This document shows, piece by piece, positions 9,293 through 56,161 of a stretch of DNA of 64,000 nucleotides (positions are counted from its first letter, which is position 1; every line of letters starts with the position of its first letter). The notes beneath the pieces are model-generated. The model had not been told where the DNA came from, did no database searches, and saw nothing but the letters and a program-made list of their open reading frames with translations. The DNA comes from Leptolyngbya iicbica LK (GTDB taxonomy: Bacteria > Cyanobacteriota > Cyanobacteriia > Phormidesmidales > Phormidesmidaceae). Made by a program: the position numbers and the translations under genes. The stretch covers positions 848,914 through 912,913 of the forward strand of contig NZ_QVFV01000002.1 of NCBI RefSeq assembly GCF_004212215.1. Reading direction: 5' to 3'.

Positions 9293-9871
9293 ATGCCTAC
9301 TGTCATTGTCGCCACCGGAAATCCTGGCAAGCTCAAAGAGATGCAAAGCTATCTAGTTGACCTGGGGTGGGAACTCGCGTTGAAACCGCCAGAAATTGAC
9401 GTTGAGGAAACGGGTACGACATTTCTGGAAAATGCCCGCCTCAAAGCCTCGGAAGTGGCGAAAGCGATGGGGCAATGGGCGATCGCAGATGATTCGGGGC
9501 TCATGGTGGATGCGCTGGATGGCGCTCCCGGTCTCTATACAGCGCGCTATGGTCGCACGGATGATGAGCGCATTGGTCGCTTACTCAAGGAATTGCAGAA
9601 CGCGGCAAATCGGACTGCGCAGTTTGTCTGTGCGATCGCCCTGGCTCGTCCAGACGGCACCATTGCGTTGCAAACCGAAGGCGTCTGCCGGGGGGCGATC
9701 GCGACTGAAAAAAGGGGAACTGACGGCTTTGGCTATGATCCAGTTTTCTATGTCCCAGCGGTGGATAAAACCTTTGCCGAAATGAGCCCCGCTGACAAAG
9801 ACCAGCTCAGTCACCGGGGCGTGGCGTTTGCCCAGCTGATGCCCGAGTTGCGATCGCTTACCCTTCAGTAG
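9293..9871 (+). CDS. rdgB: XTP/dITP diphosphatase (RdgB/HAM1)
   Basis: A 192-residue nucleotide-pool sanitising enzyme that hydrolyses dITP, ITP and XTP to monophosphates and keeps deaminated purines out of DNA and RNA. Family motifs are VIVATGNPGKLKEM at the N-terminus, EETGTTFLENARLKA, the metal-binding WAIADDSGLMVDALDGAPGL, GFGYDPVFY and the C-terminal SHRG. The length is normal for the family. It converges on murB and the two 3' ends overlap by 14 bases. Confidence 0.96.
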   Translation: MPTVIVATGNPGKLKEMQSYLVDLGWELALKPPEIDVEETGTTFLENARLKASEVAKAMGQWAIADDSGLMVDALDGAPGLYTARYGRTDDERIGRLLKELQNAANRTAQFVCAIALARPDGTIALQTEGVCRGAIATEKRGTDGFGYDPVFYVPAVDKTFAEMSPADKDQLSHRGVAFAQLMPELRSLTLQ

Positions 9872-10778
9872 CGGCAATCCCTAACCCCTCAAAACTGCCG
9901 AGAAGCCTGACTTCAGGATGCAAGCGAATATTCCATTTTTCCTCAACCCGATCTTGCACTGAGTGAATCAAATTCAAGACGTTGTCGGCGGTCGCGCCCC
10001 CCACATTCACAATGAAGTTGGCATGCATCGGCGAAACCTGCGCCTGACCGATCTGCAAAGCCTTCAGCCCAGTTTGCTCAATTAGCCAGCCAGCGGTGTA
10101 AGGTGCTGGATTCCGAAAGACACTGCCGCAGCTCGGCAAATGATACGGCTGTGTTGATCGGCGTTTCTGTAGCGCGGCCTGAGTGTCAGCCACTACCTGA
10201 GCTGGGTCGTGACCGGGGCTCAAGCGAAACTGGGCTTGCGTCACGAAACCAATGTGCGATTGCAAACTCGATGTGCGGTACGCAAATTCAAGCGCTTCCG
10301 GTGTCAAGTCGAGAAAATCCCCAGTGGGAGTCAATCCTTGTGCAGTGACCAGGCTATCAGCGGTACAAGCGCCATGAGCCCCCGCATTCATAAACACGGC
10401 CCCGCCCACCGTACCGGGAATGCCGACCGCCCATTCAAACCCTCGCCAGCCGCGCCGCGCCGCCTTCCAGGCCAGGTTAGGCAAGGGCTCGCCCGCCGCC
10501 GCAGTAAAGGTGCCCGCCGCATCATCAAAGCTGACCCCACGCAGGTGGCGGGTGCAGATTACTAAACCGCGCACCCCGCGATCGCTCACCAGCAAGTTAG
10601 AGCCAGCCCCTAAAAAGGTAATCGGCAAGTCGCGTTGCTTGGCCCAAGACAAATTATCCGCGATCGCTTCAACCGTTTTGGGTAGAGCAAACCAATCGGC
10701 CACACCGCCCACCCGGTATGAAGTAAAACTCGCCAGAGAGACCCCCTGCTTTAGAGTCAAGTCGGACTGCGGTCGCAC
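9858..10778 (-). CDS. murB: UDP-N-acetylenolpyruvoylglucosamine reductase
   Basis: A 306-residue FAD enzyme that reduces UDP-GlcNAc-enolpyruvate to UDP-MurNAc with NADPH, in cytoplasmic peptidoglycan synthesis. FAD-binding segments YRVGGVADWFALP, FLGAGSNLLVSD and GIPGTVGGAVFMNAGAHG are present. The catalytic Ser lies in CGSVFRNP, and HANFIVNVGGATADNV is the C-terminal motif. It lies 85 bases downstream of murC in the same direction, so the two consecutive cell wall genes are probably co-transcribed. Its 3' end overlaps rdgB on the other strand. Confidence 0.96.
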   Translation of the reverse strand: MRPQSDLTLKQGVSLASFTSYRVGGVADWFALPKTVEAIADNLSWAKQRDLPITFLGAGSNLLVSDRGVRGLVICTRHLRGVSFDDAAGTFTAAAGEPLPNLAWKAARRGWRGFEWAVGIPGTVGGAVFMNAGAHGACTADSLVTAQGLTPTGDFLDLTPEALEFAYRTSSLQSHIGFVTQAQFRLSPGHDPAQVVADTQAALQKRRSTQPYHLPSCGSVFRNPAPYTAGWLIEQTGLKALQIGQAQVSPMHANFIVNVGGATADNVLNLIHSVQDRVEEKWNIRLHPEVRLLGSFEGLGIAATEG

Positions 10779-10863: not shown

Positions 10864-12354
10864 TTACGCCTGCTGAACAGCCTGCATCTCAGCGGCCATA
10901 AACGGTTCCATGACCTCAGGGATGATGCGATTCAAGTTGCCCGCCCCTAAAAAGAGCGCCATATCCCCCGGTTGCAACCGCTCTTTCAACACCGTGCTGA
11001 CCGCATCCAGCGAGGGACAATACTGCACGTGCGGATGATGAAGGGCGATCGCTTGACCAACCTTCTTCGTGCAAAAATCAGACGGCGCGGCTTCTCCAGC
11101 ACTATAAACATCCGTCACAATGACCTCGTCTGCATCCGCAAAGGCTTCCGCAAAGTCATCTAAGAACGCGGTCACGCGACTATACCGATGGGGCTGAAAA
11201 ATCGCCACAATGCGATTCACCTGACTGCTCAATGACACATCGCTTGACTTCAGCAAACTTGCCGTCGATAGCGTGGCCTTAATTTCACTGGGATGATGGG
11301 CATAATCATCCACAAATTGAATGCCGTTGTAGAAACCTCGTCGTTCAAAGCGGCGACGCGCTCCCTCAAACTTGGCTAAGCCAGCGGATAAGTCGGCAAA
11401 GTCTAGCCCCATGTGACGACCGGCTGCGATCGCGGCCAACGCATTGCTGAGGTTATGCTTACCTGGCACCGACAACCGCAAAATGCCCAGGCGTGCACCC
11501 CGTTCCCAAACCACGGCCCGAGTCCCGTTCGCGCCATACACCACATCCGTCACGGTGTAGTCAGCGTCTTTACCCACCTCAACGCTGTAGGTGATCTCCG
11601 CATCAATGTATTTGGCAATCGTCTCACAGTCAGCCGAGACAATGATGGTCTCCGTCTGCTGGGAAAACCGCCGAAAAATATCCACAACATCATCCAACGT
11701 CTCGTAATGGTCGGGATGATCTAGCTCAATATTGGTGATGATGCCAATGTTTGCTGCCAGCTTGACGAGCGACCCGTCGGACTCATCCGCTTCTGCGACA
11801 AACCAATCACTCGTGCCCAGATGTGCGTTGCCTTCCCAAGCGGAGACTTCACCGCCCACCACAATCGTAGGATCCAAGTTGGCAGCCAACAGCGCATAGC
11901 CGACCATGCTACTCGTCGTCGTTTTGCCATGGGTGCCAGCAACGGCCACACTTTGTTGCTCATTCATCAGCGCAGCCAATAGATCTGAGCGATGCAGGAT
12001 GGGACAACCCATTTGCAAAGCGGCCCGATATTCTTCATTGCTTTCGTTGATCGCGGTGGAACACACCACCTGCGGCAACACCTGCGATAGCGACTGGACA
12101 TAAGCCGCAAATGGCCGTTGCTCGCATGTAGGAGAAAGGCTCTGCTCAAAAAATCTCAGGTTTTCGGCTTCTTGCCGCCAAAAGATATGTGCCCCAGCTT
12201 CTTGCAAGCGCTGAGTGATATGACTCAGCCGCAAATCTGATCCTGAAACCGGTAGCTGCTTCTGCGTTAAGACGTAGGCCAACGCAGACATCCCTATCCC
12301 TCCAATTCCAATGAAGTGGAAAGGTCTACCGCTGAAATCCACAGAATTCAGCAT
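10864..12354 (-). CDS. murC: UDP-N-acetylmuramate--L-alanine ligase
   Basis: A 496-residue Mur ligase that adds L-Ala to UDP-MurNAc using ATP. FHFIGIGGIGMSALAYVL is the N-terminal nucleotide-sugar domain, AGTHGKTTTSSM the ATP P-loop, and DDYAHHPSEIKATL and FQPHRYSR belong to the C-terminal domain. The start is the ATG at 12354, with GAGGAG six bases upstream; the longer frame adds nine residues before it. It is the first gene of a murC-murB pair. Confidence 0.96.
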   Translation of the reverse strand: MLNSVDFSGRPFHFIGIGGIGMSALAYVLTQKQLPVSGSDLRLSHITQRLQEAGAHIFWRQEAENLRFFEQSLSPTCEQRPFAAYVQSLSQVLPQVVCSTAINESNEEYRAALQMGCPILHRSDLLAALMNEQQSVAVAGTHGKTTTSSMVGYALLAANLDPTIVVGGEVSAWEGNAHLGTSDWFVAEADESDGSLVKLAANIGIITNIELDHPDHYETLDDVVDIFRRFSQQTETIIVSADCETIAKYIDAEITYSVEVGKDADYTVTDVVYGANGTRAVVWERGARLGILRLSVPGKHNLSNALAAIAAGRHMGLDFADLSAGLAKFEGARRRFERRGFYNGIQFVDDYAHHPSEIKATLSTASLLKSSDVSLSSQVNRIVAIFQPHRYSRVTAFLDDFAEAFADADEVIVTDVYSAGEAAPSDFCTKKVGQAIALHHPHVQYCPSLDAVSTVLKERLQPGDMALFLGAGNLNRIIPEVMEPFMAAEMQAVQQA

Positions 12355-52563: not shown

Positions 52564-53325
52564 TTAAGATGCTACCTGACGGTAAGGCACCGTGGTGGCG
52601 ATATTGATATCAGCCGTGGTTACCCGAGCCGGAGCTTTGGAGTTGGGCTGAATCTTGCGAGCCATATCCAAAAACAGCTGGGGGTTGCCTGCACTGGGGC
52701 GCTTGTCCTGGGGGACGAAGCGACGCACCTGAGACTGCCAAATAGACTGAGGGAAGCCGAGAATGGAGCGGTAGTATTCGTCGTAGCGGGGCAACTTCAA
52801 GTTGGTGGGCATTTCGCCTTCTTCGCGGCTCGCTAATACGCGACGGCGTTGGTAAGGCACGGTATTAAAGCCGAAGTTGCTGATGTACTCTTCGCTATCG
52901 AGCAACTCATCAACGAATCCTTGAATCCCTTTGGTGGCAACGACAATAGACCAAGCGATCTTTTCGCGCTCACTGTAAACGCGGCGACCTAAAACGCGCT
53001 CTACACAGTGCTCAACAAAGCGATAGTTATTGTTCTTTTCATAAAAGCTGTTGTAAAAGGTCTTTGACAACAGCAGACCCCGGATGAAATCACGGACATT
53101 GATTTGCCCATTACGCAACTGGGACTCTAAGAAGGCTTCGCGATCCCACTTAAAGGCATGAAAGAAAATCTGACGATAAGCTGCCTCAATCAAGGCATCC
53201 ATATCAGTAGCGTCTAAGAGGTCGTCGGTGCTAAAAGTGCGTGCTTGCTCGTCACCGCCAACGTCGTACCCTTCGACACGCGGGTTTTGACTGGAAGGGG
53301 AATAATTCAACAATGGAAGCGCCAC
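52564..53325 (-). CDS. cpcG: Phycobilisome rod-core linker polypeptide
   Basis: A 253-residue linker that attaches phycocyanin rods to the allophycocyanin core. The N-terminal [20 protein letters not shown] is the CpcG signature. The PBS linker domain follows (about 40-170: [60 protein letters not shown]). The C-terminal part binds the core. Lack of a C-terminal hydrophobic helix argues for CpcG1 rather than CpcL. It has its own strong terminator and lies apart from the main cpc operon. Confidence 0.95.
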
Positions 53326-53550: not shown

Positions 53551-54156
53551 TTACCAGCCGAGGACAGAATATTGCGCGGCGGGAATGGCGATCGCTTCGG
53601 GCGCAACGTCTCCGCTCGGAACCGTACTGGACTCATCGGGAACATCCATCCGAGTTTCGACACAAAATGAGGCGGTGTTCGATAAGCCAATGACTGTGCT
53701 GGTGCGGATGCGAGTCGTCGCATTGGGAAACCAAAACCGCTCGACCGAGCTCATCGTGGAATAGTCGGTCGTTAATACAAGGCCATCCTGGTCATCTACC
53801 TGATAGCGACCCACCACGGGGGAAGTTTCTGCATAGCCCTTTTCGCGCAGTAGTTGGCCGGATTGGGCAGAGTCGGTATCGGGGACCAAGACGAGCACGG
53901 TGGCGCCCTCTTGGGTCTGCCCCTCCTCATCCCACTGCATAGAACCTTGCCAACTCACCGCTGCACCCCCGATCGCGCGGGCGGGGTCAACGTCATGCAT
54001 TTGGCAGATTTCCACCACTTTGGAGTCCGTAGCTGGCAAAACAGAAGCGTTAATTTCGAGCTGCCCCAGTTCGGTACGACGCATCGCAAGATGGTGGGTC
54101 GTGCGCTGAGAAATCCAGCGACCTTCACTCATCTGAAAAAAATCCATCGCTTCCAT
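53551..54156 (-). CDS. cpcS: CpcS/CpeS-type phycobiliprotein lyase
   Basis: A 201-residue lipocalin-fold lyase that attaches phycocyanobilin to the Cys-84-type site of phycobiliproteins. The start MEAMDFFQMSEGRWISQRTT, then HHLAMRRTELG and the ATRIRTSTVIGLSNTASFCV, ETR segment are typical of CpcS-I. The frame stays open another 97 codons upstream, but that stretch lacks similarity and overlaps the mscS start, so the ATG at 54156 is used (54147 is possible). It lies 225 bases upstream of cpcG in the same direction, so the two may be co-regulated. Confidence 0.93.
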   Translation of the reverse strand: MEAMDFFQMSEGRWISQRTTHHLAMRRTELGQLEINASVLPATDSKVVEICQMHDVDPARAIGGAAVSWQGSMQWDEEGQTQEGATVLVLVPDTDSAQSGQLLREKGYAETSPVVGRYQVDDQDGLVLTTDYSTMSSVERFWFPNATTRIRTSTVIGLSNTASFCVETRMDVPDESSTVPSGDVAPEAIAIPAAQYSVLGW

Positions 54157-54217
54157 AACTAAAGTCCGTCGTGAGTAACATGCAGTTGAGAGTTGTATCG
54201 ATATTGTAAAGGGGAGC

Positions 54218-54228
54218 GTGTGAGGAGT
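54218..54228 (+). promoter_or_regulatory. Predicted Yfr1 sRNA target site at the mscS ribosome binding site
   Basis: GTGTGAGGAGT is the exact reverse complement of ACUCCUCACAC, the ultraconserved unpaired core of the cyanobacterial sRNA Yfr1. It covers the GAGGAG ribosome binding site, 10 bases before the GTG start of mscS. Binding would block translation. Whether this organism makes Yfr1 is not shown by the window. Confidence 0.5.
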
Positions 54229-54238
54229 TGGCAGAATC

Positions 54239-56161
54239 GTGAAGAATTTCCATCGATCAATCTGGCGGCGATCGCTGCGCCGACGCCTGGCATGGAGCCT
54301 TGTGGGCCTGCTCTTGGGTCTGGGGTGTTGGGCGATCGCGCCGCCAGTCACGGCCCAAAGTGAGGCTGATGCGCCGCCCCCACCAACGGCAGCGCCGACT
54401 GAGGCCAATTCACCAACCAGTGAGGGCGGCTCCCTAATGGTGCCCAACGCTCAAAACCCGGTGATTAATCCGCTGAAAACCTGGACGCCTTATCAAATCC
54501 GGGAGCTTTTTGCGGAGAACGACAATCAAGCATCGGATACCGCTGCCATTCATTTAGATGGCCGCACCTTATTCGAGGTAGCGGCTCCCATCAGCGAGGA
54601 GGATACGCTCAATGCCCTCGAGCGGGCGTCGGCGATTGAAACTGAATTAGAGCGAATGGCCGCAGAGTTTTTGCGTACGGGTAATCCAGACACATTAGAG
54701 GTTTATTACGAGGTGGATGAAGAAAGTAATCAACCGGTCATTTACGTCAATGGCCAAATGCTGATGACGGTGACCTATCTGGACGCCCGGATTAACGGGA
54801 TCAACAGCTTAACGCTACGGGCTCAACAAATTGTGCGGTCGGTTGAAACAGCGCTTCTCCAATACCACCAAGAGCGCCAGTCGGCCTTTCTATGGCAGCA
54901 GGTGCGCTGGACCCTGGCAACTTTGCTCATCACCCTGCTGGCGAGTTTTGCCATTAGTCATTTCGCGCGTCAGCTGAGTGTGCAGCGGCAGGCGCTAAAG
55001 CAAGGGAACTCGTTGGCGGGGCGATCGCCGACTCCAGAGAACCTGGCACTGGCGTCGTCGGGCCAGGTGAATCACATGCGCACAACCCTATTGACAAAGC
55101 AGCGGATTAACAGTCTTGGGATTGTCCGCGATGGGCTCAAAATTGTCCAGATATTTTTGTGGATTACGAGTGGGCTGGTGGTGTTAGGGTTTTTCCCTTA
55201 CACCCGTTGGCTACAGCCGCTGATCGTGGATTTAATGCGGTTGCCGGTGCGCTTGGTGTTAGCCGGTGTGGTGGCCTATGTCGTGATTCAGTTAGCCAGT
55301 CTGTGGATTGATCGACTCTTTTTAATATTTCAAGGACGCACCGAAGTGCATTTGGAGCGATCGCAGCGCTTGATTTTGCGCCTGTCTACCTTTTCTCAAG
55401 TGATTAAGGGCGTGGTTGCGGTGGTCATTGTCGGCATTACCACTCTAGTCATTTTGAGCTGGCTGGGCGTGCGCATCGGCCCCCTGGTGGCCGGTGCCGG
55501 TTTAATTGGTTTTGCCATCTCATTTGCCTCCCAGAGCCTGATCAAAGACATCATCAACGGCTTTTTGGTGTTGGTTGAAGATCAGTATGGCGTGGGTGAT
55601 GTCATTACCGTGGGCGCGATGTCGGGCTTTGTCGAAACCATGAACCTGCGCATCACCCAACTGCGGGCCACCGATGGCCAACTCATTACCATTCCCAACA
55701 GCCAAATCAATATTGTGCAGAACTTATCGAAGGAGTGGTCACGGGTAGATTTGATGATTCCGGTGGGGTTGACCGCCGACATTAATCAGGCCCTCCAATT
55801 AGTGGAAGATGAAGCGACTTTGATGCAACGGGATGAGATTTGGGGATCGTTGATTTTAGAGCCGCCGTTGTTATTGGGGGTGGATGACCTGAACCACGCC
55901 GGGGCCACCATTCGCATTTGGATCAAGACGCAGCCGCTGAAGCAGTGGGATGTGGCGCGAGAATATCGCCGCCGCCTAAAATTGGCGTTTGAAGCCGCCC
56001 AGATTCCCCTGGGGATCCCGCAGCAAGTGGTGCAGGTGTCCGGGCCGTATGCGCTCAGTCGGTTTGCCCACAACGGGCTGCATGGTCAGGAGGAGATTGA
56101 GGCGATCGCCCCAGCGCCAGCCCCACCCACCGGTTCACTGAATGTCACCCCAGATGTGTAA
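54239..56161 (+). CDS. MscS-family mechanosensitive ion channel
   Basis: A 640-residue channel that opens under membrane tension and protects against osmotic downshift. It has a basic signal-like N-terminus (SLRRRLAWSLVGLLLGLGCW, end AIAPPVTAQ), a periplasmic helical domain (about 45-215), then four to five membrane helices. The pore region VRIGPLVAGAGLIGFAISFA, SQSLIKDIINGFLVLVEDQY is followed by the beta domain (VGDVITVGAMSGFVETMNLR, TQLRATDGQLITIPNSQI). A cytoplasmic C-domain follows. The start is a GTG with GAGGAG 11 bases upstream. It precedes an alpha/beta hydrolase gene by 27 bases. Confidence 0.92.
   Translation: MKNFHRSIWRRSLRRRLAWSLVGLLLGLGCWAIAPPVTAQSEADAPPPPTAAPTEANSPTSEGGSLMVPNAQNPVINPLKTWTPYQIRELFAENDNQASDTAAIHLDGRTLFEVAAPISEEDTLNALERASAIETELERMAAEFLRTGNPDTLEVYYEVDEESNQPVIYVNGQMLMTVTYLDARINGINSLTLRAQQIVRSVETALLQYHQERQSAFLWQQVRWTLATLLITLLASFAISHFARQLSVQRQALKQGNSLAGRSPTPENLALASSGQVNHMRTTLLTKQRINSLGIVRDGLKIVQIFLWITSGLVVLGFFPYTRWLQPLIVDLMRLPVRLVLAGVVAYVVIQLASLWIDRLFLIFQGRTEVHLERSQRLILRLSTFSQVIKGVVAVVIVGITTLVILSWLGVRIGPLVAGAGLIGFAISFASQSLIKDIINGFLVLVEDQYGVGDVITVGAMSGFVETMNLRITQLRATDGQLITIPNSQINIVQNLSKEWSRVDLMIPVGLTADINQALQLVEDEATLMQRDEIWGSLILEPPLLLGVDDLNHAGATIRIWIKTQPLKQWDVAREYRRRLKLAFEAAQIPLGIPQQVVQVSGPYALSRFAHNGLHGQEEIEAIAPAPAPPTGSLNVTPDV

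Follow-up and report, generated by a model that had tools for sequence, protein, structure and literature searches.

A perfect Yfr1 complement at the mscS ribosome site of Leptolyngbya iicbica LK is probably a Shine-Dalgarno element whose flank fits by chance, and Yfr1 pairing looks conserved at cell-wall genes

Inspection of a 64-kb window (the whole stretch of 64,000 nucleotides analyzed here) from Leptolyngbya iicbica LK had revealed a perfect complement to the core of the small RNA Yfr1 in the leader of an mscS-type mechanosensitive channel gene. In this study, we compared this site with the leaders of related genomes and found that it is probably a Shine-Dalgarno element whose flanking bases fit Yfr1 by chance, the conserved role of Yfr1 lying at cell-wall genes. 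We infer that selection for Yfr1 binding does not act on the mscS match and that the Yfr1 target within the window is murC. Regulation in this organism is predicted throughout, and the experiments referred to below were performed in other strains.

The mscS leader and the yfr1 gene

Sequence inspection and a pattern search recovered the 11-mer GTGTGAGGAGT at positions 54218 to 54228 (plus strand), which is fully complementary to the Yfr1 core ACUCCUCACAC, just as the original prediction had described it, covering the GAGGAG ahead of mscS. It is the sole match in the window, even if one mismatch is allowed. The GAGGAG itself (54222 to 54227, plus strand) is the Shine-Dalgarno element of mscS and lies 11 nt ahead of the GTG start at 54239, the earliest possible start downstream of an in-frame TGA located within the 11-mer. 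The open reading frame (54239 to 56161, plus strand) encodes 640 amino acids with three Pfam MscS domains (MS_channel). A cpeS-like gene (53551 to 54156, minus strand; Pfam CpeS, E value 1.9e-60) is transcribed divergently, and since it starts at 54156, the spacer between the two genes measures just 82 bp. Downstream of the cpeS-like gene and on the same strand, an open reading frame (52564 to 53325, minus strand) presumably resembles a CpcG-type rod-core linker of the phycobilisome. An Rfam scan of the window gave no match.

A covariance model identified one yfr1 gene above the Rfam cut-off in the 5.72-Mb genome (G000:C8:39707-39770, minus strand; RF01116, 49.7 bits versus a cut-off of 38). 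Its core, ACTCCTCACAC, is the exact complement of the mscS-leader 11-mer, so the sRNA gene that the original prediction presupposed is present with an exact core. According to fold prediction, the linker UUCACUCCUCACACCACACU is unpaired and the core sits between two hairpins. The gene thus resembles the described family RF01116 in its two hairpins, its unpaired linker with ACUCCUCACAC, and a guaB-like gene upstream, and differs from it in having an acetyltransferase-like open reading frame downstream, where the family has trxA (PMC2190773); of the expected location between trxA and guaB, the guaB side alone was found. Furthermore, yfr1 is present in 61 of 65 family genomes, and ACTCCTCACACCA is retained in the copies inspected among them.

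Genome-wide, there are six exact copies of the 11-mer: in yfr1, at the ribosome sites of mscS and glmM, and at three positions elsewhere. Copies located behind an SGNH-like gene in a tract rich in GTGAG (not a sense-strand ribosome site), within an HtrA-like open reading frame (antisense), and between bioB-like and methyltransferase-like genes (wrong strand) were rejected as targets. The earlier calculation of 0.03 chance matches per 64 kb is correct as arithmetic but naive, since GAGGAG is favored at starts. For a rough estimate that preserves Shine-Dalgarno elements, we counted GAGGAG close to the starts of 707 sampled genes (17 genes, mscS included) and took flank base composition into account. 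By chance, about 0.3 exact matches at a ribosome site are then expected per genome, so a single unselected match is unremarkable. As a separate observation, a divergent spacer (L252/L253, G000:C1:1223994-1224052) has an outward-facing TGTGAGGAG on each strand, both copies close to a possible start, and one strand therefore also reads CTCCTCACA.

Conservation, rank, and accessibility of the mscS site

The cpeS-mscS synteny is common to six genomes (that of L. iicbica LK, G003, G002, G004, G060, and G006). In an alignment of their mscS leaders, the 11/11 match GTGTGAGGAGT of L. iicbica LK corresponds to GTGTGAGGAGG in G003 (10/11) and to mismatched versions in G002 (GTGTGAAGAGG) and G004 (GCGTGCGGAGG), and no site was found in G060 and G006. 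The original prediction had named lack of conservation in related mscS leaders as evidence against it, and the 11-mer is indeed absent from them except for the 10/11 match in the closest genome. G003 is the nearest relative, and its mscS leader is nearly identical throughout; because there are few differences anywhere in this leader, its 10/11 match carries little information. G003, G002, and G004 all read GG where L. iicbica LK reads GT, which makes the base that completes the 11-mer private to the latter.

We also calculated Yfr1 pairing for 27 mscS homologs. The mean was -10.8 kcal/mol (own-genome background, -8.9), which does not stand out from shuffled Yfr1 linkers, 68 of 300 being as good; when the two closest genomes were removed, the count was 114 of 300. 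In both of these closest genomes, pairing at mscS is good. As judged from these sequences, a place for mscS in the Yfr1 regulon is not borne out by conservation.

These data fit a simple origin of the match. With its CUCCUC, the Yfr1 core is similar to an anti-Shine-Dalgarno sequence, so any GAGGAG ribosome site automatically provides six pairs. In the lineage of L. iicbica LK, the mscS leader also carries an upstream GTGT, and in L. iicbica LK itself the G-to-T difference (GGAGG in the relatives, GGAGT here) makes the match 11/11. Given the similarity of the core to an anti-Shine-Dalgarno sequence, drift can produce perfect matches at ribosome sites, and such matches have to be tested for conservation. 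Incidental binding of Yfr1 to the mscS mRNA may occur if the site is unfolded.

It is rather unlikely that the surroundings of the 11-mer have been kept mainly because they serve the divergent cpeS gene, and perhaps also mscS, as promoter DNA; the partial matches in close relatives would then stem from a conserved promoter rather than from RNA pairing. The leader alignment shows a block, TATCGATATTGTAA (54196 to 54209, no strand assigned), that is conserved in most syntenic genomes and, from its sequence, is likely the -10 region of cpeS and perhaps also that of mscS. Within the 82-bp spacer, TATTGTAA is the best-conserved part in the aligned genomes and G006, and on the minus strand, towards cpeS, it shows the good -10 hexamer TACAAT. 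However, a promoter scan of the window found no full sigma-70 pattern, and promoter conservation alone leaves the private eleventh base unexplained. A promoter function is compatible with a Shine-Dalgarno element that matches Yfr1 by drift.

We consider it unlikely that mscS is a genuine target recently acquired in this lineage, with pairing at the ribosome site blocking translation, which would couple a valve for envelope tension with the synthesis of the cell wall. Several observations speak for such a target and count against drift. Among 1332 genes sampled from 1.66 Mb of the genome, the uninterrupted 11-bp match is the longest at a ribosome site, and its hybrid energy of -20.2 ranks fifth. 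Yfr1 is present with an unpaired core, both closest genomes pair well, and most of the Yfr1 sites verified in Nostoc are located at the translation start or immediately ahead of it (PMC6974561). Moreover, mscS encodes an envelope protein, fitting the known Yfr1 regulon, and its repression by an abundant sRNA is quite conceivable regardless of how the match arose. Against a recent target stand the missing conservation in the genus, the lack of a group signal among mscS homologs, a search of the accessible literature that found no paper linking Yfr1 with mechanosensitive channels, and the predicted inaccessibility of the site, mscS falling to rank 13 of 1332 once the opening cost is included. 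This cost amounts to about 10 to 14 kcal/mol, depending on the assumed 5' end and calculated from naked-RNA folds only, and arises from pairing between the site and the GC-rich beginning of the coding region; the folds predict the site to be buried in a hairpin. The glmM site costs about 4.8 kcal/mol to open, and net pairing energies are about -6 to -10 kcal/mol for mscS versus about -16 kcal/mol for glmM. Since naked-RNA folds ignore ribosomes, accessibility is weak evidence.

Predicted Yfr1 sites at murC, glmM, and mraY

The conserved function of Yfr1 in this organism is probably repression at the starts of murC, glmM, and mraY and, in relatives, of porin-type outer membrane genes. The candidate in the window is murC (10864 to 12354, minus strand), identified as an open reading frame and by family search, named from sequence resemblance, and followed by murB (9858 to 10778; an open reading frame likewise named from resemblance). 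Its leader carries a family-conserved two-part Yfr1 site on the minus strand (12383 to 12375 and 12366 to 12359) with 17 pairs in total and a predicted duplex energy of -26.4 kcal/mol. By hybrid energy, murC was the highest-ranked gene in the first gene sample. It is also the strongest Yfr1 candidate within the window.

A family search for the exact 11-mer just before starts identified glmM throughout the six genus genomes and additionally in G049, and mraY in five genomes (G004, G006, G009, G050, and G060). In L. iicbica LK, the glmM leader with the exact complement is that of L009 551 to 1993 (minus strand; G000:C1:1437340-1437360). Other genes with such matches in the family include those for SomB/OprB-type porins, a TonB receptor, and an outer-membrane barrel. 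Several matches in relatives were merely the antisense of yfr1 itself and were rejected. In two relatives, G021 and G036, Yfr1-complementary 11-mers occur in tandem, 19 to 22 nt apart (L055, about position 1500; L063, about 1478 to 1500).

Mean pairing energies across family orthologs were -22.9 kcal/mol for glmM, -26.0 for murC, and -22.9 for mraY, and 1, 0, and 0 of 300 shuffled linkers, respectively, paired as well. Left out were a few ortholog loci at which automatic start finding failed, their frame not being open or a contig end cutting the locus; the apparently unpaired murC leader of G005 is one of them and was excluded from the shuffled-linker test. The register of pairing varies by clade, as with GTGTGAGGAGT versus GTGTGGTGTGAG at mraY, so pairing is kept while the sequence changes. 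For glmM, 19 leaders from Cyanophyceae outside the family gave a mean of -19.8 kcal/mol (0 of 300 shuffles as good), and 7 leaders from sister classes, in which we assume that Yfr1 is not to be expected, gave -8.3 kcal/mol (265 of 300). Since related sequences are not independent, none of these counts is a probability. On these comparisons, murC, glmM, and mraY look like true conserved Yfr1 targets, with glmM looking like a new candidate across the Cyanophyceae. The combined reading, in which Yfr1 controls peptidoglycan precursor synthesis at all three throughout the Cyanophyceae and a single substitution also brought mscS into the regulon in this lineage, is quite unlikely.

Relation to known Yfr1 targets

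The glmM product makes glucosamine-1-phosphate for the cell-wall precursor UDP-GlcNAc. If the prediction for glmM is true, Yfr1 would slow a single pathway at three steps in a coordinated way (glmM, murC, and mraY), which gives this by-product of the analysis more weight than the mscS match, which on its own matters little. The original prediction placed osmotic or envelope channels in the Yfr1 regulon; its envelope theme is upheld by murC, glmM, mraY, and the porin-type genes, and its mscS part is not, the site being unconserved and without a group signal. Yfr1 is likely, from sequence, to control the envelope in this organism through cell-wall genes.

In Nostoc sp. PCC 7120, 11 Yfr1 interactions have been confirmed, 10 of them repressive, with murC and mraY included (PMC6974561). 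Both of these verified targets have strong predicted Yfr1 sites here too, murC in the window and mraY in the genome. The two systems are alike in the sRNA core, in pairing at translation starts, and in the involvement of envelope and peptidoglycan genes; they differ in that the main text of the Nostoc study names neither mscS, whose site here is unconserved, nor glmM (PMC6974561). In Prochlorococcus MED4, Yfr1 and Yfr10 likewise pair via a shared motif, and mutation of UCCU abolishes binding; the gene set is another one, with no mechanosensitive channel, murC, or peptidoglycan in the main text (PMC6778093).

A literature search, with supplements and many subscription papers (e.g., the 2010 IntaRNA study) outside its reach, found no link between Yfr1 and phosphoglucosamine mutase, and the single co-mention of Yfr1 and glmM was unrelated. 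glmM may already be listed as a Yfr1 target somewhere.
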